This document shows, in pieces, positions 11,562 to 22,812 of a stretch of DNA of 42,057 nucleotides (position 1 is its first letter; each line of letters begins with the position of its first letter). The translations under genes and the position numbers were made by a program. The DNA is from a virus: the IMG/VR virus record IMGVR_UViG_3300047174_000299, positions 1 through 42,057 of that record, one strand, 5' to 3'. The notes beneath the pieces were generated by a model. It saw only the letters and a program-made list of their open reading frames with translations, made no database searches and was not told where the DNA came from.

Positions 11562-12205
11562 AGCGCACCCTCCGCCTGAGCGGCAAAAAGAAAGTCGAGC
11601 AGACCCTCCGTTGCCGCATCGTTAAGCTCCTGCTGCGTGGGCAGCACGGCGGGATCCGGCTCCTGGTGCACACTCTTCACCAGCCAGTAGATGATCGAGC
11701 CTTCGTCGACGCGGAGCTTCTTCGGCGCGCCGCTTTTGGTGCGCTTGCCGCTGCCTGGATTGCGCACGTCGTCCGACGCCATGAGTGCGATCGGGCGGAC
11801 CATGCCCTCCTTGTCGCGGCCCCACAGAAAGACCAGTCCGGTGAAGCTGCGCGCGCGGATGCCGTAGCCAAACCCCTGCGCCGGGATGGCCAGGTACTTC
11901 GAGGGCGAGCCGTTCTTCCAGGGCGGAACGATATCGCCGCCCAGGTAGCGCTGGCGCATGCCGAGCTGCGTGATCGAAATGTAAACGCCCACGCCATCGA
12001 TCACCGGCTGCGTCACGCTTTCCGCCGCGCTGGCGTAGAAACCCGTCGACGGGAAGCCGGCCTTGTTCGTCGGCAAACCCTGCAGGTGTTCGACCACGCG
12101 GTTGCGGATGGCGCGGCCCACGGCCGTGCGGCCCTCGTTGACCAGCGCCGGCACGCGCGCCAGGGCGGCGTCGACGTTCTGCTCGACGTGGAAGGTCAGT
12201 TCCAT
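11558..12205 (-). CDS. Virion morphogenesis / tail completion protein (gpG or gp10-like)
   Basis: A 215-residue protein after the gpF-like head protein. The first ~60 residues (VDAALARVPALVNEGRTAVG followed by a basic helix RAIRNRVVEHL) match the usual start of Mu gpG and HK97 gp10-type proteins, which act in head completion or head-tail joining. The middle includes GFPSTGFYASAAESV and an aromatic, beta-rich core, and the C-terminus is an amphipathic helix. It overlaps gpF by 10 bp and the next gene by 4 bp. The family is fairly likely; the exact role is inferred. Confidence 0.65.
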   Translation of the reverse strand: MELTFHVEQNVDAALARVPALVNEGRTAVGRAIRNRVVEHLQGLPTNKAGFPSTGFYASAAESVTQPVIDGVGVYISITQLGMRQRYLGGDIVPPWKNGSPSKYLAIPAQGFGYGIRARSFTGLVFLWGRDKEGMVRPIALMASDDVRNPGSGKRTKSGAPKKLRVDEGSIIYWLVKSVHQEPDPAVLPTQQELNDAATEGLLDFLFAAQAEGAL

Positions 12206-13149
12206 GACGCCTCCTGCAACAAACGGTGCACGGCTGCTGCGCGGCGGCGCGGCGCCTCGTTCACCAGGTCAAATGCGCGCTGGCATCGGGCCCGGGATGC
12301 CTCGTTGCTGAAGCGCAGGATGCCGTCCACGAGCTCGACGCCTGCGCTGAGGCCATCGGCCAGCGCGGCGGTGAGCGAATCGTCCAGGCCGGCCACGGAC
12401 GCCTGCAGGCCGTCGTTCATCCGGCGGGGCGCCGGTGCGATCGGATTCTGCCCGGGCGCCATCAGGCCGAGCTCGACGGCGCGACGGGCGCCGACGTCGC
12501 GCAGCCCCATGCCGCTGCCGTAATCGAACGGCGGGTACGGCAGGCCGAAGCGCGAGATCGCCGGCCAGATCGGATCGTTCTTCAGCGCGAACGCATTCAG
12601 GCCGGCGAAGTCTGTTGCCTTGTTGCCGAAGGCGCGCGTCGCTGTCGTGGCGGACCCGAGCGTGCCGGCCGAGTCATTCCAACGCTGGGCCCACTCGCGC
12701 TTGTTCACGCGGCGCGCCACGCGGATCAACTGCTGCGCCGGGAACGCCATGAGCGCACCCGGGCGATTGCCCTGCTGCCACGCGCCGAAGTTGCGGACCA
12801 TGGAGACGTTCGTGTCCAGCATCACGTCGATGCGCGCGTTGCTGAAGAGGTCCTCCAGCGATCCTTCCTTGCCGCGCTCCGGCCGGTACTGCAGGCGGCG
12901 GCCGAGCTCCTGCAGGCGCAGCCGCTGCGTCGCCTTGTCGCTCGTGCCGTCCACGATCGCCAGGCATGCCGTCTTGAACGCCGACAACAGCCGCGCGCTG
13001 ATCACGCGCGCCGAGAAGAATCCACGCTCGCGCACATCCGCCGACGTGTGCACCTGCATCTCGCGGGAGTTGAGCTCGGAGGGCATCTCCGGCTTGCCGG
13101 CCAGCTCCGCGATCGCGTCATCGAAAGGGATAGGTTGAGTGAGGTTCAC
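12196..13149 (-). CDS. Minor head protein, Mu gpF/gp30-like
   Basis: A 317-residue protein starting with GTG in a GTGA overlap. It carries the signature region of phage head morphogenesis proteins of the SPP1 gp7 / Mu F type: NARIDVMLDTNVSMVRNFG near residues 105-123, then basic segments and LKNDPIWPAISRFGLPYPPF followed by DYGSGMGLRDV. These proteins are minor capsid components near the portal. In Mu this gene directly follows the portal gene; here it lies after the major capsid gene, a local change in order. Confidence in the family is good. Confidence 0.75.
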   Translation of the reverse strand: MNLTQPIPFDDAIAELAGKPEMPSELNSREMQVHTSADVRERGFFSARVISARLLSAFKTACLAIVDGTSDKATQRLRLQELGRRLQYRPERGKEGSLEDLFSNARIDVMLDTNVSMVRNFGAWQQGNRPGALMAFPAQQLIRVARRVNKREWAQRWNDSAGTLGSATTATRAFGNKATDFAGLNAFALKNDPIWPAISRFGLPYPPFDYGSGMGLRDVGARRAVELGLMAPGQNPIAPAPRRMNDGLQASVAGLDDSLTAALADGLSAGVELVDGILRFSNEASRARCQRAFDLVNEAPRRRAAAVHRLLQEASWN

Positions 13150-13871: not shown

Positions 13872-14933
13872 TCAGCTGATGGTCAGCTTCTCCATGCCGA
13901 GCGTCGTGCAGACCACGATGCGGCTGTAGTACTCGACGAAGATGTCGACGAACTTGCCGTAGTCGTGCCGGTAGACGCGCATGGCGCCCGACTCGGTGGG
14001 CGACCAGAACCGCTTGAGGTGCGACGGGTCCTCCTCGTCCACGCCGTCCAGCGCGTAGAACATCAGGACGACTTCTGTCATCAGCCGCGCCTTCGAGGCG
14101 GAGGAGGCCTGGTAGACGGACTTGCTCACCATGCCCTTGTCCATCTGCAACGCATCCGCGATCTGCTGCGGGCCCTTGTCCGCGTAACGGTAGCCGAGCG
14201 GGTTGTTCGATTGCTCGAACGCCGTCTGCTGCGTCGACCACGCGTCCTTCGCCCAGAGGATGCGATTGTTGAACAGGCCGGAGGAGAGCTGGGCCGTGTC
14301 GTTCGTGGACCGGATGTCCGCGATCGGGTTGGGCGCGCCGCTGCTCCAGGTCTTCGCCGTGTTCGTCGCCGCGCCCAGGGCGAGCGTCACCGCGCGCACC
14401 GCCTCGTTGCGCCAGCACCGGCGGATGAGCTTGGCCACGATCCGGTTCTCGTACTGGCTGGGATCCTCGAGCGAGACGCCCTTGCCGAACGTGCCGCGCA
14501 GCTTGTCGCGATCGTAACGGAAGCCGAGTCCCTTGTTGAGGGTGTTTTGCCAGTTCGTCCGGCCCGAGTACTCGACGCGCTTGAAGTCCGCCCCGGTCGC
14601 ACGAATATCGTCCGACTCGGTGTAGAACTCCTCCGCGTTGCTGAACGACTTGAACTCGAACACCGGCCCGACCAGGACGTCGGGCGCCAGGTAATTGACC
14701 AGCGCCTGGTTGTTCTCGGGATCCTTGTAGCCGATGGCGTACGTGGTCAGCGGCTCGCTGAAGGTTTCTTCCGTGTAGGAAGCCTCGTTGCCGAGGAACA
14801 TCTCACCATGCTGGGCATCCGGGCTGTAGGAATTAAGCATGGGCAGGTCAATGACGCCGTCATTGGCCAGGTTGTGGACCTTCGGCAGGCGGCTCGCGCC
14901 GCGCCCCGAAGGAATCTTGCTTGCTGTTTTCAT
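13872..14933 (-). CDS. Major capsid protein
   Basis: A 353-residue protein in the major capsid position, after protease, scaffold-like and cement genes. The N-terminal ~35 residues are basic and contain HNLANDG at residues 20-26, the motif shared with protease, scaffold-like and cement proteins. Beyond that the chain shows features of an HK97-fold capsid protein: a long early helix with loop (EEFYTESDDIRATGADFKRV), a helical spine (YENRIVAKLIRRCWRNEAVR) and a C-terminal beta segment (DYGKFVDIFVEYYSRIVV). A ribosome-binding site AAAGGAG lies about 12 bp upstream of ATG. The N-terminal region may be removed on maturation. Confidence 0.8.
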   Translation of the reverse strand: MKTASKIPSGRGASRLPKVHNLANDGVIDLPMLNSYSPDAQHGEMFLGNEASYTEETFSEPLTTYAIGYKDPENNQALVNYLAPDVLVGPVFEFKSFSNAEEFYTESDDIRATGADFKRVEYSGRTNWQNTLNKGLGFRYDRDKLRGTFGKGVSLEDPSQYENRIVAKLIRRCWRNEAVRAVTLALGAATNTAKTWSSGAPNPIADIRSTNDTAQLSSGLFNNRILWAKDAWSTQQTAFEQSNNPLGYRYADKGPQQIADALQMDKGMVSKSVYQASSASKARLMTEVVLMFYALDGVDEEDPSHLKRFWSPTESGAMRVYRHDYGKFVDIFVEYYSRIVVCTTLGMEKLTIS

Positions 14934-14958
14934 GTGGGGTGGTTTCTCCTTTCGGGGG

Positions 14959-15765
14959 TTAGGTGTTGACCGCGCGCTTCACGATCACGTTGTACTTCGT
15001 GTTGCCGATCGAGGCCGCCGCGCTGAGCGTGACGTTGATCTGGCCCGCAGCCGCCTGGGCGACCGTGACCGTCTCCGCGCCGTGCTGCGTGTTCAGCGTC
15101 ACGAGGACGATGTCCGTGTTGAGCAGGCCCGCGATCGCGAGCACGTCGTTGACGCCCGCCACCGTGGCCGCCATCACGCCGGCAAACAGCGTGACGTACC
15201 CGCTGCCCGCTTCCGGCAGGATCGGGTCGAACTCTATGTTGTCGCCCGCTGCGCCGGACTGCTGTGCCCGGCCGAACGCATAGAAGACGCCCGCCGTGGC
15301 GGCTGGCTTCGTCCGCGCGTAGCCGTTGGCGTCCGGCACCAGGAGGTCGCCCTGGTTCACGTTGCTGTTGATCGAGACGAGCTTCGTCTCCTCGGCGGAA
15401 CCGAAGAGATCCACCTCGATCGGCTTGGACAGGTCCGTATACCAGCCGCCGCCGACGGCGCCGGTGTCCGTGCTGTCGCGGAACGTCCCGATCGGGATGT
15501 CAGCCACACCGGCCAGAGCCGCGTGGAACGAATCCGAGCCGTTCTTGGCGAGGAAGTACTTGTGCTCACCGTTGGGCCCGCACGGCACCTGCACGTCAGG
15601 CAGGCGCGAGATGCGGCCGCCCTTGTGCGTGCCCTCGGCGATGTTCGCCAGGTTGTCGACGATTCGTCCGCTGCCGTACTGCGGGATGCGCTTGAGCGCA
15701 ACGATGAACAGGACGAAGCCCACCAGGGCCAGTCCAAGGAGCATCAGATTGAATGCGATGTGCAT
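14959..15765 (-). CDS. Capsid cement (DUF2190-like) protein with N-terminal membrane-like segment
   Basis: A 268-residue protein directly before the major capsid gene. Residues ~130-190 (NVNQGDLLVPDANGYARTKP ... GVFYAFGRAQQSGAAGDNIE) match the pattern of DUF2190-type decoration proteins that stabilise the expanded head. Unusually, residues 5-24 form a strong hydrophobic helix (LMLLGLALVGFVLFIVAL), followed by RIPQYGSGRIVDNLANIAEG. The segment RIVDNLAN is identical to that of the scaffold-like protein and is a plausible protease cleavage point that would release the hydrophobic part. The start is supported by AAAGGA about 8 bp upstream. Confidence 0.65.
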   Translation of the reverse strand: MHIAFNLMLLGLALVGFVLFIVALKRIPQYGSGRIVDNLANIAEGTHKGGRISRLPDVQVPCGPNGEHKYFLAKNGSDSFHAALAGVADIPIGTFRDSTDTGAVGGGWYTDLSKPIEVDLFGSAEETKLVSINSNVNQGDLLVPDANGYARTKPAATAGVFYAFGRAQQSGAAGDNIEFDPILPEAGSGYVTLFAGVMAATVAGVNDVLAIAGLLNTDIVLVTLNTQHGAETVTVAQAAAGQINVTLSAAASIGNTKYNVIVKRAVNT

Positions 15766-15797
15766 GTCTTGTTTTCCTTTGGGTTGGTGCCTCGGGG

Positions 15798-16229
15798 TTA
15801 AGCCTTGGCGTGTTTGGTTTCCTTCGTCTCGACCTTCACGGGCGTCGACGGCGGGGGATTGTTCTCGCGGACCTGCGAGGCGTTGGCGTTGATGCCCGCC
15901 TCCGCGATGCCGGCCTCCTTCGCGTCTGATTTCTCCTGCGCTTCCTTGGCGGTGAGCGGCGGCTGGACCGGACGCTCCTGGCGTCCCAGCGGGACAAACC
16001 CGCCGGCGGGGCTCGTCGGCATCAGGGTGGACTTGCGCAGCTTCTCCTGGCGCTCGACCTCGGCGTCGCGCTTCAGCTGCGCGGTGACGACCTGCTCGGC
16101 CTGCTCGCGCGTGAGGCCGGCCATCTGCTTTTCGGCCACGAGCTTGGCGACGCGGTCGCCGTAGAGCTCGATCGTGGCGGGGGTGAGTTGAGTGAGAACT
16201 TCCTCTTTGTTGACGGGGATATTTTCCAT
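15798..16229 (-). CDS. Hypothetical head-region protein, charged and Pro-rich
   Basis: A 143-residue, strongly charged protein between the scaffold-like and cement genes. The N-terminal half is helical (ELYGDRVAKLVAEKQ; GLTREQAEQVVTAQLKRDAE), the C-terminal half is Pro/Lys/Glu-rich and looks disordered. It lacks the NLAN motif of its neighbours. Composition and position are compatible with a small scaffold or internal head protein, but no family is recognised. Confidence 0.5.
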   Translation of the reverse strand: MENIPVNKEEVLTQLTPATIELYGDRVAKLVAEKQMAGLTREQAEQVVTAQLKRDAEVERQEKLRKSTLMPTSPAGGFVPLGRQERPVQPPLTAKEAQEKSDAKEAGIAEAGINANASQVRENNPPPSTPVKVETKETKHAKA

Positions 16230-16255
16230 GGGAATCAGTCTTTCTTGGTGAGTGG

Positions 16256-16924
16256 TTATTTCTTGGCGGCGGGATCCTTCATCGCGCCGAAGAGTTCCTT
16301 GTGGTGGCGCTGGACCTTGGCGAATGCCTTGTCGTAATCGCCGCCGTTCTTGCCCATCTCCTCGTTCACGAGCTCGTCGACCTTTTCGCGGCGGGCGGTT
16401 TCGTTGGCGATGTGCTGCTGGCTCTGGTCGCCCAGGTTGCCGGTCACGGGCCTGGTCTTGATCACGCCGGCCTTTTCGTTGGCCAGAGCGGTTTCGGCCG
16501 CGTCGAAGTCATTGGCGAACTGCTCCAGCCAGTGATCCTTCTTCGCGGGGAGGATGCGGCCGGCCGCAATGGCGCCGCCGACGAGCGTCTCGGCCAGCTT
16601 CTTGCGGGTCTTCACGAGCTCCTCGTTGGCCAGGCCGTCCTCCTTGCCCTTCTCCTCGTTGTCGGCGGAGATTTCCACCGGTCCGGGAGGTGCGTCCTCC
16701 AGCTCGTTGGCGGCCTGCATGTGCGCGTCGTGCGCCGCCTCAAGCGATTCGTCGTCGGCGTTGGCGAGGTCCGGCCGGCCGATGGCCAGCGCCGTTTTGC
16801 GCTTCCAATGCTGGGCGCTTCGGGACGTGGCGGCAGCCTCGTTGGCGAGGTTGTCGACGATTCTTCCCCGCGACAGCCCCGCGAGGGAGGCCAGTGCGAG
16901 GACCGCTACTTTCAGTTTATTCAT
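16256..16924 (-). CDS. Scaffold-like head assembly protein with repeated LAN motifs
   Basis: A 222-residue, highly charged helical protein just after the protease gene, the position of the Mu scaffold Z. The ATG start gives a short hydrophobic N-terminus (KVAVLALASLAGL) followed by SRGRIVDNLANEAAA. The tripeptide LAN occurs four times (NLANE, DLANA, GLANE, ALANE), with FAND and IANE as variants, spaced along the chain. Scaffolds are normally destroyed by the head protease, so these could be cleavage sites; this is inference. The N-terminus could also be read as a signal peptide. Stretches such as VKTRKKLAETLVGGAIAAG are helical. Confidence 0.55.
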   Translation of the reverse strand: MNKLKVAVLALASLAGLSRGRIVDNLANEAAATSRSAQHWKRKTALAIGRPDLANADDESLEAAHDAHMQAANELEDAPPGPVEISADNEEKGKEDGLANEELVKTRKKLAETLVGGAIAAGRILPAKKDHWLEQFANDFDAAETALANEKAGVIKTRPVTGNLGDQSQQHIANETARREKVDELVNEEMGKNGGDYDKAFAKVQRHHKELFGAMKDPAAKK

Positions 16925-16956
16925 GGTGTGTTGCTGTCGGGGGTTGGGGTTGAAAT

Positions 16957-18426
16957 TTAGGAGGCGCCGCCGTCGTGGACGTGCGGGTTTTTGAAGGCGT
17001 CGACCAGCTTCGAGAAGAGACCCTGCTTGCGGGCGCCCGTGGACGTCTGCGCCGACGTTGCGGCCCACTTGTTCAGATTGGTGCGCACGCCTTGTTGAAA
17101 TTCGGTGGGCGTATGCTGGATCGGAGTCGCAGGCGTTGCGGGTCGGGCCGGCAGCGCGATCTTGAGCGGCTCCTCGGCGGCCTTGATCGCGGGCGGCTTC
17201 GGGACATTGAGGCCGAGCTTTTCCGGCTCTTTGGCAGGCGCTGACTTCGCGGGAGACGCGGCGGCCATTCGTTCCTGCGACTTCTCGTGAAGTTCGGCAG
17301 CCTTGTAGGCATGCGCCTTGGAACCAGTCGCGATCGGCCCCATGCCGCCACGGTGATGGAGCGAATAAACGCCCGCGCCGTGCTGCTTGACCGCGTACGC
17401 GCCGCTACGTGCGACTTCCGAGGCTTTGCCCTGGCCCTTCTGCAAACGCCACACCGCGCGGCCGTCAGCCTGGCGCTCCAGCTTCCCGGCCGAGTTTGCC
17501 TTCATCTGGCTTTCGAGATCCTTGCCGACGGGCACGGCGCTTTTCTTGACTGGCCCTGATCGCGTCGCCGCGCGTGTCCGCGCTGCCGCCTTGGCAAACG
17601 GCTGCCCGCGCGATTCCATATTCGCGCGCCGCGTGATCCAGCCCTTGCGCGCCGCCTCACTGCGATCCGCGTTCGCCAGCGCCCAGGCCGCATCGGTAAA
17701 GCTCTCGTTGAAGTAGCCAAGCCACTCGTCGCGGTCCGTCTCTTCCAGGACGCCGTTGGCGACATACTCGCTGATCACGGCCTGCGCGGCCGTGTGCATC
17801 CCGGTCCCTTCAATGGCGTCCTCCTCGTTGGAGAGCGGCACCACCGGGATGTTCGGCCGGTTCGTGAAGGCGACGCTGTTGAGGCGGACCGGCATCATGA
17901 TCTTGCGCCCCTTGTCGTCTGTCTCGCCGGTGTAGGCCACGCCCCAGTAGGCCGAGAAGTACTTGAACGTCTTCTTGTCGATCAGCGACTGGCCGTCGGG
18001 CGTGAACTCCGCCCGTGCATAAATGCCGTCGTCGCGGTTGGCGATGTCCTTGATCCAGGCGTACGAGTTGGGGTCCGGATACTTGATCGGGTCCTGGTCG
18101 TGATGGCCCCGATACCAGGGACGCTCGCCGACGACCTTCTGTCCAACGATGGTCCGAAGCTCGTTCGCCATGGCCTCGCCGGCCGCGCGGTTCACGCGCT
18201 GGATGACGCCCTTTGGATACTTGCGCTTTCCATCCTTGGTGAAGCCGCCCGGGTGCGGGTAATCGCCGTAGGGCGCGATCTGAACCCAACCCTTCTCGTC
18301 CTGGTGAAACTCGTTGCAGAGGCCGTTCTCCGGCTCGGCCACCTGCGGCAGGTTGTCGTCGTGGTTGGCCAGGTCATGAAGCACTTCGCGTCGGCGGTGC
18401 AGCTTAAAGATGGCGGATAGATTCAT
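16957..18426 (-). CDS. Head maturation protease, Mu gpI-like
   Basis: A 489-residue protein starting at ATG 18426 in an ATGA overlap with the portal gene. Residues ~25-200 follow the Mu prophage I-protein protease pattern: VQIAPYGDYPHPGG, ERPWYRGHHDQDP, SYAWIKDIANRDDGIYARAE, and RLNSVAFTNRPNIPVVPLSNEED. This enzyme processes head proteins during assembly, usually including itself. DLAN occurs at residues 18-21 and ALAN further on. The C-terminal ~240 residues are Ala/Lys/Pro-rich and low-complexity, suggesting a fused scaffold-like tail as in Mu, where protease and scaffold share a reading frame. The catalytic residues cannot be assigned by eye. Confidence 0.75.
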   Translation of the reverse strand: MNLSAIFKLHRRREVLHDLANHDDNLPQVAEPENGLCNEFHQDEKGWVQIAPYGDYPHPGGFTKDGKRKYPKGVIQRVNRAAGEAMANELRTIVGQKVVGERPWYRGHHDQDPIKYPDPNSYAWIKDIANRDDGIYARAEFTPDGQSLIDKKTFKYFSAYWGVAYTGETDDKGRKIMMPVRLNSVAFTNRPNIPVVPLSNEEDAIEGTGMHTAAQAVISEYVANGVLEETDRDEWLGYFNESFTDAAWALANADRSEAARKGWITRRANMESRGQPFAKAAARTRAATRSGPVKKSAVPVGKDLESQMKANSAGKLERQADGRAVWRLQKGQGKASEVARSGAYAVKQHGAGVYSLHHRGGMGPIATGSKAHAYKAAELHEKSQERMAAASPAKSAPAKEPEKLGLNVPKPPAIKAAEEPLKIALPARPATPATPIQHTPTEFQQGVRTNLNKWAATSAQTSTGARKQGLFSKLVDAFKNPHVHDGGAS

Positions 18427-20030
18427 GCGTTGAGTCCGGTGGGTTGGGTGAGGCCGTCCAGGTAGGCGGCGGTGTAGGCGGCGGAAAGAAGGGTTGCCGT
18501 GCTTGGATCGGTCTCGACCGCCTTGAGCACGCTGGGCAGATCGTCGATGACGCGGCGGACCTCGTTCTCCAGGTCCGACTCCGGATCCGCGAGGATCTTC
18601 GCGATGCGCTGGTCCAGCGGCTTGAGCGCGGCGGCCTGCAATGGCAGGAGGCGCTGGCGCACCGCGCCGATCAGGCGAATGTGCTGCATTTGGTAACTGG
18701 ACAGCCGCTCGTTGCCGAGGCCCGGTGGGATCTGCTCGTCCTGTTGCGGCGGCGTGAGCAGCGTCTCGCCGGGCTTCGCGGCCACGCGGCCGTACCGGCG
18801 CATCGCATCCTCCACGCTGAGCTGCGCGCCGGCGCTGAGCAGGAACTGATCGACGGCGAGGTCCTGCGCGGTGGCCTCCTTCGGCGGGATGACCACGCGA
18901 TAACGGACCAGCGGCAGCGTGCCGAAAAGGTACTGGCAGGCGGGGCGCACCAGGCGCCGGTTGATCGTGTCCTCGATCATCTTCACGTCGTCGTCGAGGA
19001 TGATCTCCGCCTCGTCCTCCTGCCGGTTGGATCCACGGCCCTGCGCGTGCGCGCCGCTCGATTGCGTGGAGAGATCGCCGCCGCGCCACAGCGCCGCGAT
19101 GCGCGCGTCCATCCGCTTGACCAGCGGCTCGTAGGGCAGCGCCGCCTGGGAGCCTTTCAGGTCCACGACATCGATCTTGTCCATCGAGCTCTTGATCGCG
19201 GCGAGGTCCGACGCCAGGTAGCGCAGCGCTTCCTCCAACGCGGTCCAGGTCTGCGAACCCTTCGGCGAATCGGTTGTGCCGATGAAGGCCGGCATGCCGT
19301 TGCGCTCGCAGAACGTGGCCCAGTCCAGCAGGGGCATCTTCTTGAGGGTGTGTGCGATCATCGTCGCGATCATCAACCCCTCGCCGACGGTGATCATCCA
19401 GCCGCCCTCGTCCAGGTCGATGCCTTGGGTTTCACCCTCCTGCTGCAGGTAGCGCAGGCGCCCGAGCGTGCGCTCGAAAAACCAGAGAGGCGTCCAGCGC
19501 AGCTCCGCCGTGAGGTTGCCATCCTCCTGCGGCTGCCAGACGATCTCGTGGATGGAGTAGCGCGAGCCGACAGCGCTCATCATCTGGCGCTTCATCAACG
19601 TCTCGCCGCCGACGTGGTCGGTGTCGATCGTGCTGGTCGCCGTGATGTTCGAGAAGAAGTACTCGATCTTCTCCTGCTGCGCGGCCGCTTCGTCCAGTTG
19701 CGATTCGTCCAGGTTCTCCGTCGGCTCGATCTGGTAGTCGTAACGGGAGATGGCCTTTTCGCGCAGCGGCTTGACCAGGGCAACGACGTCGTCACGCTCC
19801 GCGATCTCCGCCCAGGCAATCGAAATCTCGCGCGGGTAGCCGATACGAAAGCGGTTGATGTACCAGCCCAGCAGCTCCGGCGTGAGGTACCGGAGAGGAT
19901 TGAAGCCGGATCGCAGGTAAAGCTGCACACGGGCGGAGGAAACGACCGGGCCCTTGGTCGGCAGCTTCTTCGGCAGGCCTTTTACCTTGGCGGCGGCCAC
20001 CGTCTTTTTGCGTTTGCCGCGCTGCGTCAT
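18423..20030 (-). CDS. Portal protein, Mu gp29-like (DUF935)
   Basis: A 535-residue portal subunit that forms the dodecameric DNA-entry vertex. Family features of Mu gp29-like portals are visible: a basic N-terminus; an early helix LLGWYINRFRIGYPREI; the segment RRQMMSAVGSRYSIHEIVWQ; AELRWTPLWFFE; FIGTTDSPKGSQTWTALEEA; a long helix KSSMDKIDVVDLKGSQ; and DDDVKMIEDTINRRLVRPAC. Length is typical (about 500-540). It overlaps the large terminase and protease genes by 4 bp each, as expected for a packaging operon. Confidence 0.85.
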   Translation of the reverse strand: MTQRGKRKKTVAAAKVKGLPKKLPTKGPVVSSARVQLYLRSGFNPLRYLTPELLGWYINRFRIGYPREISIAWAEIAERDDVVALVKPLREKAISRYDYQIEPTENLDESQLDEAAAQQEKIEYFFSNITATSTIDTDHVGGETLMKRQMMSAVGSRYSIHEIVWQPQEDGNLTAELRWTPLWFFERTLGRLRYLQQEGETQGIDLDEGGWMITVGEGLMIATMIAHTLKKMPLLDWATFCERNGMPAFIGTTDSPKGSQTWTALEEALRYLASDLAAIKSSMDKIDVVDLKGSQAALPYEPLVKRMDARIAALWRGGDLSTQSSGAHAQGRGSNRQEDEAEIILDDDVKMIEDTINRRLVRPACQYLFGTLPLVRYRVVIPPKEATAQDLAVDQFLLSAGAQLSVEDAMRRYGRVAAKPGETLLTPPQQDEQIPPGLGNERLSSYQMQHIRLIGAVRQRLLPLQAAALKPLDQRIAKILADPESDLENEVRRVIDDLPSVLKAVETDPSTATLLSAAYTAAYLDGLTQPTGLNA

Positions 20031-22027
20031 CCGACAACCCTCCGGTTGAAGCGGCGGCTGCTGACCTGGGCGCGCGTGATGCCGACGCGCTGAAACTGGA
20101 ACGGCCCCGCCTTACCGTGGAGCGCCTCACCCTCGGCCAGGGCGCTGTAGGCATTCGCCAGGAGGAAGTGATTCTCGCAGCCGTCGACGTAATCGCCGAT
20201 GTCCCCGTTATCCTTGCGTTCGCGCTCGCTGCCGACGATGAAGTGGGAGGCGACCGTGTCGATCATCTCCACGCCCCGGCGCGGCAGCAGCGTGGCCGGC
20301 TCGACGCGCATGACGTTCTCGAAGTACTCGGTCACGCCCTCCTCCGGCGTGAGCAGCTCGCGCACGACGCGGTCGATCGAGTCCTGGCGGTTGCACTTGA
20401 TCAGCGGCACGAACTTCTTCAGGCCGCCTTCATCGAACTGGTCGAACCCGTGCTCGATGCCCGCGCCTTCCTGCTTCTTGTCGAACCGCACGACGGCGCA
20501 GCGCAGGTTTTTCCAGCGGCCCTTGTTGCCGTCCCAGGCGAGTCCGCCGGGCAGCGCGAGGTAGACGTCGGCGCCGTAGATGGGATCCGGCACGACCGGC
20601 CACGCCTGCAGCGCATCGAGCCCGTTCAACGCCAGCGCAAGCGAACGCGCCTTCGACGCCTCCGGCCGCTGGTCGATAAAGAGGCAGCTGCAGCCGATGG
20701 AATGGAACAGCGCGGTGCAGCGCGTGACGATGTCCGACGAGGGCAGCGTCGTGGCGTAGATGATGCGCTTGCGCCGTGCGCTCTCCCGCTCCTTGGCGAT
20801 GAAGAATGACTTGTCGCCCACGTCGACGCCGGCGTAGACCGGGCGGCCGGCCGCCGGCTTGTTGCGCATGTCGTAGGGCTCCAGATCGCGCGCGCGGTCC
20901 AGCACGGCAGGGGTGAGCGCCTGCGTGCTCGACTGCGGCAGCGCGAGCACATCGCAACGGAAGACGATCATCCGCTCGGCGTCGTTCACCGCCAGCGTCC
21001 ACTCCGCCACGATCTTCGACAGGCTGATCGCGCCAATGCCGAGCTGGGAAAGGCGGAAGGACCAGTTGCGCATGCCGATGCGTTCCGGCTTGCGGTGCGT
21101 CCACTCCACCGCGCGGCGATCCAGCGTCGCGCCGGTGAGCGGATGCGCGAGGTAGTAGACTTGCTCCGGGTGGTGCGTGGCCACGACGTGCGACGGATCC
21201 GCGTCGCGGCGGAAGTCGCCGGCAAAGGTGAGCTTCGGATCGGTCGGACTCGGCGCCGCGTCCAGCTGGCAGCGCACAATGCCCGGGAAAGCCTCCTCCG
21301 GGTTGATTCCGCCCAGCTCCATCACGCCCTGGCTGCCGCTGCGCCACGCCGAGTTCATCCCCCGGCCGTTGACCCGCTGCGTGCCGATGCGCAGCTCCAG
21401 CCGCAGATCGGATGCGCCCATGCGGCCGGCGGCGAACTTGCCGTACTTCTCCGGGATGTCGTCGCATTCGTCCTTCTCGATGATGTCGGCGGAGAACGTC
21501 GTCGGCGTCTTCTGCAAGCCCATGGCCATCGCCTGGGCGCGGCTGCGGCCGTCGTTGACCGTGAAGGCGCCCTTGCGGTCCACCGCCTTGCCGGACTCGT
21601 TGATCGCCTTGCCGACCTGCATCATGCGCGCCAGCCACGGGATCTGGTCGACCACGTCGGGCCGGAACTTTGCATCCATCACGCCGGCGACCAGGTCGCG
21701 GTCCGGCAGAAAGAGGATGCCGTTGAGAAACCGCTGCGAGGTTGCGTAGGCGAGGAAGTTGAGTTCCAGGATGGTCTTGCCGAACTGCGCACCGCCGGCG
21801 ATCGCGACGACGGAATCCGCCAGGTTGCCGGCCAGGATGCGATCCAACGTCGTGACGATTTCCCGTAACGCCTCGCGGCCCTCGAAGGTGTAGGGCACGT
21901 GCCGGCCGCCCTTGCCCGGCACCCTGGCGTCCTGCAGGAGGAACTCCTCGAAGGTGGCGCGATCCGGCCGGCCTTCGATGGTCTTGCCGCCCAGCTTCTG
22001 GTCCAGGATGTCGACGGCGGATTTCAT
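20027..22027 (-). CDS. Terminase large subunit, Mu gp28-like
   Basis: A 666-residue packaging motor. I set the start at ATG 22027, an ATGA overlap with the small terminase; the upstream frame is antisense-like. The ATPase domain carries a Walker A loop GGAQFGKT (78-85) and a Walker B-like DIIEKDE (D186, E187). The nuclease domain shows an RNase H-like set of acids: GVDVGDKSF (D402), CLFIDQRPE (D452) and GDYVDGCENH (D612, D615). Packaging ATPase and headful/end cleavage nuclease therefore both look intact. It is longer than Mu gp28 (~550), and resemblance to GpA-type terminases cannot be excluded. Confidence 0.8.
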   Translation of the reverse strand: MKSAVDILDQKLGGKTIEGRPDRATFEEFLLQDARVPGKGGRHVPYTFEGREALREIVTTLDRILAGNLADSVVAIAGGAQFGKTILELNFLAYATSQRFLNGILFLPDRDLVAGVMDAKFRPDVVDQIPWLARMMQVGKAINESGKAVDRKGAFTVNDGRSRAQAMAMGLQKTPTTFSADIIEKDECDDIPEKYGKFAAGRMGASDLRLELRIGTQRVNGRGMNSAWRSGSQGVMELGGINPEEAFPGIVRCQLDAAPSPTDPKLTFAGDFRRDADPSHVVATHHPEQVYYLAHPLTGATLDRRAVEWTHRKPERIGMRNWSFRLSQLGIGAISLSKIVAEWTLAVNDAERMIVFRCDVLALPQSSTQALTPAVLDRARDLEPYDMRNKPAAGRPVYAGVDVGDKSFFIAKERESARRKRIIYATTLPSSDIVTRCTALFHSIGCSCLFIDQRPEASKARSLALALNGLDALQAWPVVPDPIYGADVYLALPGGLAWDGNKGRWKNLRCAVVRFDKKQEGAGIEHGFDQFDEGGLKKFVPLIKCNRQDSIDRVVRELLTPEEGVTEYFENVMRVEPATLLPRRGVEMIDTVASHFIVGSERERKDNGDIGDYVDGCENHFLLANAYSALAEGEALHGKAGPFQFQRVGITRAQVSSRRFNRRVVG

Positions 22028-22572
22028 TTCGCGATCGCTCCCTTCAATGCCTCGAAGGCCGCCAGCGCCGCCGGGTTGTCCTTGATCTGCGTGTGCAGCT
22101 CCTCCAGCCCTAGCTCGATCTTCTTCATCAGCGAGGACCGGAACTTTTCCTTCTCGAACGCGAGCGACTCCGACTTCTTGTCCTGGTCCCGCCGCTTGAG
22201 CAGAAGCCCCATCAAGTTCTTCACGTCCTTCGGATCGATCGACGGCGCGCTCGCCATCTCGAAGCACCAGCGCTCCAGGAGTGCGATCGTGGACTTGTCG
22301 AAATCCTCCGGGCTGGTCTCCGCTTCGGAACGCACTGACTTGGAAAGCGTCGCCGCGCGCTGCCTGCGTTCCAGTAGCGCTGAGGTGCAGTACTCCGAGT
22401 AAAACTCCGACAGCGCCCGGACGGAGGTTTCGATATAGAACGGCTCCTTCTCCAGCAGTACGAGCGCCTTGCCGTAGGACATGCCGCGCAGCAGCCACGA
22501 GACGAGTTCCTCCCGCTGTTCGTCGGGAAGGTTCATCAGCTTCGAGTCGCTGCGTGGCTTGCGGAATCCCAT
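22024..22572 (-). CDS. Terminase small subunit, Mu gp27-like (DUF3486)
   Basis: A 182-residue protein directly upstream of the large terminase. The N-terminus (MGFRKPRSDSKLMNLPDEQR followed by EELVSWLLRGMSYGKAL) matches the start of Mu gp27-type small terminases: a basic leader, then an HTH-like segment beginning LP-EQREEL. The rest is helical with a long charged coiled coil (FEKEKFRSSLMKKIELGLEE). These proteins recognise phage DNA for packaging. The start abuts the stop of the upstream wHTH gene. Confidence 0.75.
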   Translation of the reverse strand: MGFRKPRSDSKLMNLPDEQREELVSWLLRGMSYGKALVLLEKEPFYIETSVRALSEFYSEYCTSALLERRQRAATLSKSVRSEAETSPEDFDKSTIALLERWCFEMASAPSIDPKDVKNLMGLLLKRRDQDKKSESLAFEKEKFRSSLMKKIELGLEELHTQIKDNPAALAAFEALKGAIAK

Positions 22573-22812
22573 TCATGACTCCTTCAGCCAGGCGCGGCCG
22601 GCGCCGGTGATTTTCCATTTCACGCGGCCTTGCACGCGCTGCGAAACGACGAGCCTCTGCGTCTCCAGCTCATTCAGCAGCGTGCGGAACTCAGCGACGG
22701 TGACGGCTTCCGCCGCCATGTTGTTGACCTCGACAAAGAGCACGTCCTCGCTCTGGAGGTAGACCTCGGGAAACGTGGCCAGGATGTGGAGGGTGGCGCG
22801 ATCCGGCTTCAT
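22573..22812 (-). CDS. Small winged-helix protein in gp26 position
   Basis: A 79-residue protein starting at ATG 22812 in an ATGA overlap with the gp25-like gene. It reads as a winged helix: helix LHILATFPEVY, helix TVAEFRTLLNELETQRLVV, then a wing of two strands SQRVQGRVKWKITGAGRAW. Mu has a small gene, gp26, at the same place between gp25 and the small terminase. A role in late regulation or in DNA recognition during packaging would fit, but neither is shown. Confidence 0.6.
   Translation of the reverse strand: MKPDRATLHILATFPEVYLQSEDVLFVEVNNMAAEAVTVAEFRTLLNELETQRLVVSQRVQGRVKWKITGAGRAWLKES

Follow-up and report, generated by a model that had tools for sequence, protein, structure and literature searches.

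The prohead protease gp21 of phage T4 cleaves at L/I-X-E sites, and its autocleavage has been termed a major gap (PMC9026906). Sites of the form A-X-E, several per propeptide, are cleaved by gp245 of phage SPN3US (PMC10052503). For phage Mu, the record of the capsid protein gpT states that its start was verified by amino acid sequencing, and gpT is therefore taken to lack a leader. In the herpesvirus assemblin-scaffold system a serine protease and its scaffold are joined in one protein or encoded together, and P1 is Ala.

The locus described here lies in IMG/VR virus record IMGVR_UViG_3300047174_000299, whose 42,057 nucleotides were analysed as a whole (the window); the phage is Mu-like, with a host probably among the Verrucomicrobia. 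Genes on the minus strand follow the order terminase (phrog_675), Mu-type portal (PF06074), protease, scaffold-like protein, small protein, cement-like protein and major capsid protein (Table 1). Comparison with T4 gp21 revealed common ground in a short degenerate motif with a hydrophobic P3, a free P2 and a fixed P1, in a scaffold with sites for cutting into several fragments, in N-terminal propeptides on head proteins and in a site near the N-terminus of the protease itself. The T4-type layout, that is, several motif copies in the scaffold and sites near the N-termini of the shell proteins, is thus present, whereas P1 is Asn (or His) and not Glu (Asn in 68 of 71 capsids), the protease belongs to the Mu-like family PF10123 and the so-called cement substrate has a hydrophobic leader. 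SPN3US gp245 resembles the window in its short tripeptide motif and its several motifs per propeptide and differs in its P1 Glu and its jumbo-phage protease family. With Mu gpI/gpZ and gpT the window shares a PF10123 protease encoded upstream of the capsid gene, the conserved His and Ser, and a scaffold that is a homologue of the C-terminal region of the protease protein. Unlike the window, Mu repeats L-S-A and not L-x-N in its scaffold and has Trp at position 76; scaffold and protease are separate genes in the window, where the scaffold-like protein has its own ORF (16256-16924) and not a Mu-style internal start inside the protease gene. The solved folds nearest to the AF2 model of the window protease are those of herpesvirus proteases (a weak match), with P1 Ala there and Asn here. 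Our best reading is that x-x-Asn cutting would be a new specificity variant of maturation of the T4 gp21 ([LI]-x-E) type. The open-access literature (subscription papers were outside the scope) contained no report of Asn as P1 specificity in a prohead protease.

The gene block is kept in two IMG/VR relatives (L001 and L003, capsids about 50% identical to that of the window) and in Verrucomicrobiota prophages (L006, L007, L043-L082, L114-L122, L132-L138 and L166-L205); gene starts were picked by eye and many of the relatives are MAG contigs. Searches of INPHARED phage records for relatives of the capsid, the scaffold or the full-length protease, PDB sequence searches with capsid, protease and cement profiles, and an initial profile search of genome contigs with a two-sequence capsid alignment all returned none; a scan of viral contigs was precluded for the alignment of 13 capsids by its high divergence. 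In the order of G130 (Verrucomicrobiota) a window-like capsid occurs in 91 of 273 genomes, many of them MAGs of 0.7-1.1 Mb.

Table 1. Head genes of the window and predicted processing sites (the arrow marks the predicted bond).
Feature	Coordinates	Strand	Remarks
Mu-like head maturation protease, 489 aa	16957..18426	-	core ~42-203; PF10123 match
Predicted pro-region site LAN↓H, residues 19-21	18364..18372	-	in disordered N-terminus; LAN aligned in L001 and L003
Predicted pro-region site LCN↓E, residues 36-38	18313..18321	-	adjoins folded core
Gln76, candidate specificity residue	18199..18201	-	Gln throughout the Asn-type proteases; Glu in the His-type; Trp in Mu
Predicted site LSN↓E, residues 198-200	17827..17835	-	C-terminal end of core; PLSNE invariant in A4
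Predicted site LAN↓A, residues 250-252	17671..17679	-	junction to KGW-module C-terminal tail
Scaffold-like protein, 222 aa	16256..16924	-	homologous to C-terminal part of Mu-like protease-scaffold fusions
GRIVDNLAN↓E, predicted scaffold-like leader end	16841..16867	-	N-terminal
Predicted internal scaffold sites LAN↓A 53-55, LAN↓E 98-100, FAN↓D 136-138, LAN↓E 147-149, IAN↓E 172-174, LVN↓E 185-187	16364..16768	-	
Small protein	15798-16229	-	between scaffold-like and cement-like genes
Cement/decoration-like protein, 268 aa, hydrophobic leader	14959..15765	-	gene order and iterative HMM family with L069
GRIVDNLAN↓IAEGTH, predicted cement leader end	15643..15669	-	Asn just before GTH-type start in leader-bearing relatives
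Major capsid protein, HK97 fold, 353 aa	13872..14933	-	phrog_1005 (weak) and AF2 model
Predicted conserved site LGN↓E, residues 47-49	14787..14795	-	Asn49 conserved in relatives at constant spacing
Secondary candidate leader site LAN↓D, residues 22-24	14862..14870	-	site of the first-pass annotation; position not conserved

The first-pass annotation had described an N-L-A-N motif near the N-termini of four head proteins, and its positions were all found to be correct: DLANH at 18-22 in the protease, RIVDNLANE at 21-29 in the scaffold-like protein, RIVDNLANI at 34-42 in the cement protein and HNLANDG at 20-26 in the capsid. The scaffold-like protein has, as had been claimed, four copies of LAN (26, 53, 98 and 147) together with FAND at 136 and IANE at 172. 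LAN was also said to be rare elsewhere, and the other ORFs of the window contain one copy. This lone LAN lies in TerL (20027-22618) as LLANAYS, near the C-terminus of the terminase. Our analysis added sites at LCN 36-38, LSN 198-200 and LAN 250-252 in the protease, LVN 185-187 in the scaffold and LGN 47-49 in the capsid.

The protease matches PF10123 with an E-value of 3.2e-11 (43.8 bits, above the curated cut-off of 25.2). In its AF2 model the core (about 42-203) has pLDDT >90 and residues 1-41 are predicted to be disordered; the weak fold matches are best for herpesvirus proteases (E 0.005), with T4 gp21 (5jbl) at E 0.15. Sequence positions of the motif predict self-cleavage of the protease at either end of its core. 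At the core end the His and Asn lineages have LPH↓E or LPN↓E. A recurrent module, x-x-N↓[DASV]GTSEGAxKGWETRR, follows the motif in the tail of the protease and in head proteins encoded downstream of the capsid gene; its carriers are the window (17671-17679), L001, gp30-like proteins of L003 and L006, L118 and L186. The LAN junction of L006 is followed by a PBECR1 nuclease domain (PF18809, E 9.9e-9), an arrangement suggestive of a packaged nuclease set free by the head protease.

The scaffold-like protein matches phrog_3894 (E 1.2e-8, profile 297-445/458). Scaffold and protease are fused in L007, L043, L079 and others. The cement-like protein gave no direct match to Pfam (PF09956 and PF22758 were sought), and its name rests on a distant link, through gene order and iterative HMM, to L069, which matches PF09956 Phage_cement_2 at E 1.1e-8. 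Cement leaders of relatives are highly diverse (trans-membrane-like, or short and basic), yet end in x-x-Asn immediately ahead of a GTH-type start.

The AF2 model of the capsid protein matches 3bjq, HK97, lambda and others in Foldseek (E 2.8e-14 to 1e-7), which identifies the HK97 fold; residues 1-34 have very low confidence. Analysis of 13 capsids of 32-50% identity revealed Asn49 as the sole invariant residue besides Met1 in the first ~90 residues. Asn stands at this site, with constant spacing to the SEPLT-like block that comes next, in 68 of 71 leader-bearing capsids; capsids without it include L204 (HAQ↓E) and L205 (CLSS↓T). The conserved site is thus LGN↓E and not the LAND that the first-pass annotation took for the capsid signal, and LAN↓D at 22-24 would at most be an extra site inside the leader. 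Capsids of the second prophage group begin with MSRLS and have neither leader nor x-x-Asn site. Leaderless capsids and cements of relatives start near the predicted P1'.

Comparison with relatives confirmed the sharing of the motif among head proteins, whereas its exact form did not hold and generalises to hydrophobic/Ala-x-Asn. The constant part is [LAF]-x-Asn, with LSPLWN in scaffold and cement of L003, FFAN in protease and cement of L007, and LFN and LWN in L001. The motif was looked for in relatives that keep the protease, and dozens of Verrucomicrobiota prophages proved to have x-x-Asn in all four proteins (protease, scaffold, cement and capsid). In several relatives the scaffold is reduced or the protease is without its pro-region site. 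In L188, L195, L196 and L204 the protease tails are reduced or basic, copies of the motif in the scaffold are almost nil and capsid leaders are very short. Vibrio phage 1.136.O (L219) has ALN↓R three times in a PF10123-type protease tail, possibly another local variant of the site.

Analysis of the P3 position revealed concerted change within single phages. A-A-N occurs in capsid, cement and scaffold alike in L064, L132 and L187, and A-A-N or A-S-N in L044; others have L-x-N. Capsid Leu goes with cement Leu (7/2 vs 1/32, Fisher 1e-5) and with a Leu-dominated scaffold (18/0 vs 7/16, Fisher 2.6e-6), both P values being inflated by relatedness. Parsimony places some 6-10 P3 changes on the tree; the tree-aware paired test, with one or two starred pairs, has too low power to decide. 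A second concerted change, the strongest case, affects P1. Three contigs of a single lineage (L137, L212 and L213) have a complete exchange of Asn for His, with x-x-His↓Glu at capsid, protease and scaffold sites: VALAH↓E in the capsid, SVAH↓E at the N-terminus and LPH↓E at the core end of the protease, and for example LEH↓E, LAH↓E and ALAH↓E in the scaffold. Relatives with 41-45% capsid identity to this lineage have Asn at the same sites, and L134 and L136 are mixed for Asn and His at the protease N-terminus. The concerted P3, together with His for Asn in a lineage in which Gln76 is replaced by Glu, argues for recognition of the motif by the protease.

Alignment of 85 Asn-type proteases revealed three positions with 100% invariance, namely Gln76 and the presumed catalytic pair, His108 and Ser158; the pair is also kept in Mu and the His-type lineage. 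Position 76 is Glu in 3 of 3 His-type proteases, in which four other conserved positions are also altered, and Trp in Mu and four other phages of the Mu type. Repeats of L-[ST]-A occur in the scaffolds of Mu and of the Shewanella phage, the latter with 22 hydrophobic-x-Ala against 10.9 expected; the enrichment is weaker in the others. The P1 of the scaffold was not clear in several PF10123 phages whose residue 76 is Phe, Met or Tyr, and the rule is therefore limited to Gln, Glu and Trp. From this correlation, which includes a single switch to His, Gln76 may set the P1 preference. We lean slightly towards the wider proposal that residue 76 is the main P1 determinant in Mu-like prohead proteases (Gln with Asn, Glu with His, Trp with Ala) and that capsid, protease and scaffold sites are rewritten jointly with it, so that the scaffold tripeptide tells the cut sites. 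The determinants of prohead protease specificity, and the joint change of an enzyme and many substrates, are poorly known; in this family a natural switch from Asn to His comes with a single strong candidate for the residue behind it. As a reading rule, the repeated scaffold tripeptide would name the cut site and so predict mature N-termini in uncultured phages.

Taken together, the phage's own PF10123 prohead serine protease very probably recognises this motif, most likely cutting after Asn in [LAF]-[small]-Asn↓[EDSAI]. As the head matures, the protease core would be freed from its disordered pro-region and tail by self-cleavage; the scaffold would be chopped at about seven sites, the cement protein would shed its N-terminal leader, hydrophobic segment included, and the major capsid protein would lose residues 1-49. 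The proposal of the first-pass annotation that a head protease trims N-terminal leaders and destroys the scaffold thus gains support from recurrence and concerted change in relatives; we infer from these patterns the cut after Asn, the PF10123 protease as its agent, the prohead as its place, and its timing. Alternatively, the motif could stay uncut and serve as a docking peptide by which proteins are brought to the scaffold or the protease, since a short linear motif common to the partners of one assembly would also co-evolve, and the scaffold has many copies. We consider this unlikely, given that in capsid and cement the motif stands exactly at the end of a variable leader, about where leaderless relatives start, that copies of it lie at either end of the protease core, and that its final residue changes along with a protease position which elsewhere is just as invariant as the presumed catalytic pair.

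Cleavage at Asn could also proceed without the phage protease, by signal peptidase acting on the cement leader or by spontaneous Asn cyclisation and chain break. Asn is a chemically labile residue, and the cement leader is hydrophobic, with some leader ends A-x-A-like. Capsid, protease and scaffold, however, have no hydrophobic leader comparable to that of the cement, the His-type lineage keeps the system with a P1 His that is unable to cyclise like Asn, and P1 type varies with protease residue 76, which makes this route very improbable.

Cleavage by the PF10123 protease also has to be weighed against a functionless copied gene segment, through recent duplication or conversion of a leader. The 16-bp DNA core reported by the first-pass annotation is indeed identical at 15650-15665 (cement) and 16848-16863 (scaffold-like), with no other match at up to 2 mismatches (0.02 expected). 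In L003, however, the shared LSPLWN is encoded by different codons in the scaffold and cement genes, so DNA identity is unnecessary to explain the shared peptide; the motif moreover recurs across very different leaders and folds and is conserved in distant relatives, and there is little chance that copying accounts for it.

The four head proteins of the window contain [LIF]AN 11 times, where shuffles give 1.4, the highest count in 5000 being 8. The 9-mer GRIVDNLAN, common to the scaffold-like and cement proteins, has a shared length never reached in 2000 shuffles. Scaffold and protease tails were scanned without a preset motif (offsets 1-4 by 20 residues), and hydrophobic-x-Asn was by far the top pattern in both the window-like group (107 vs 44 expected, z 11.6) and the second prophage group (112 vs 50, z 10.6), both counts being pooled over homologous sequences that are not independent. 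Single phages also have an excess (13 vs 2.2 in L001, 8 vs 0.85 in L043), and portals, scanned for comparison, reach only 1.2-1.4 times expectation. L137 has 5 hydrophobic-x-His-[ED] in protease and scaffold against 0.23 expected (0 of 20000 shuffles). Compositional chance or a shared helix periodicity, suggested by Ala/Glu/Leu-rich scaffold tails, is hardly credible against z >10 over composition-preserving shuffles and the same pattern with His in L137. Composition, helix periodicity and copied DNA were accordingly rejected as sources of the repeated LAN on the grounds of the shuffles and the L003 codons.

A further head protein of the window (12196-13149) has FSN↓E and LVN↓E close to its C-terminus (12259-12312) and, judging by these tripeptides, may be another substrate of the protease.
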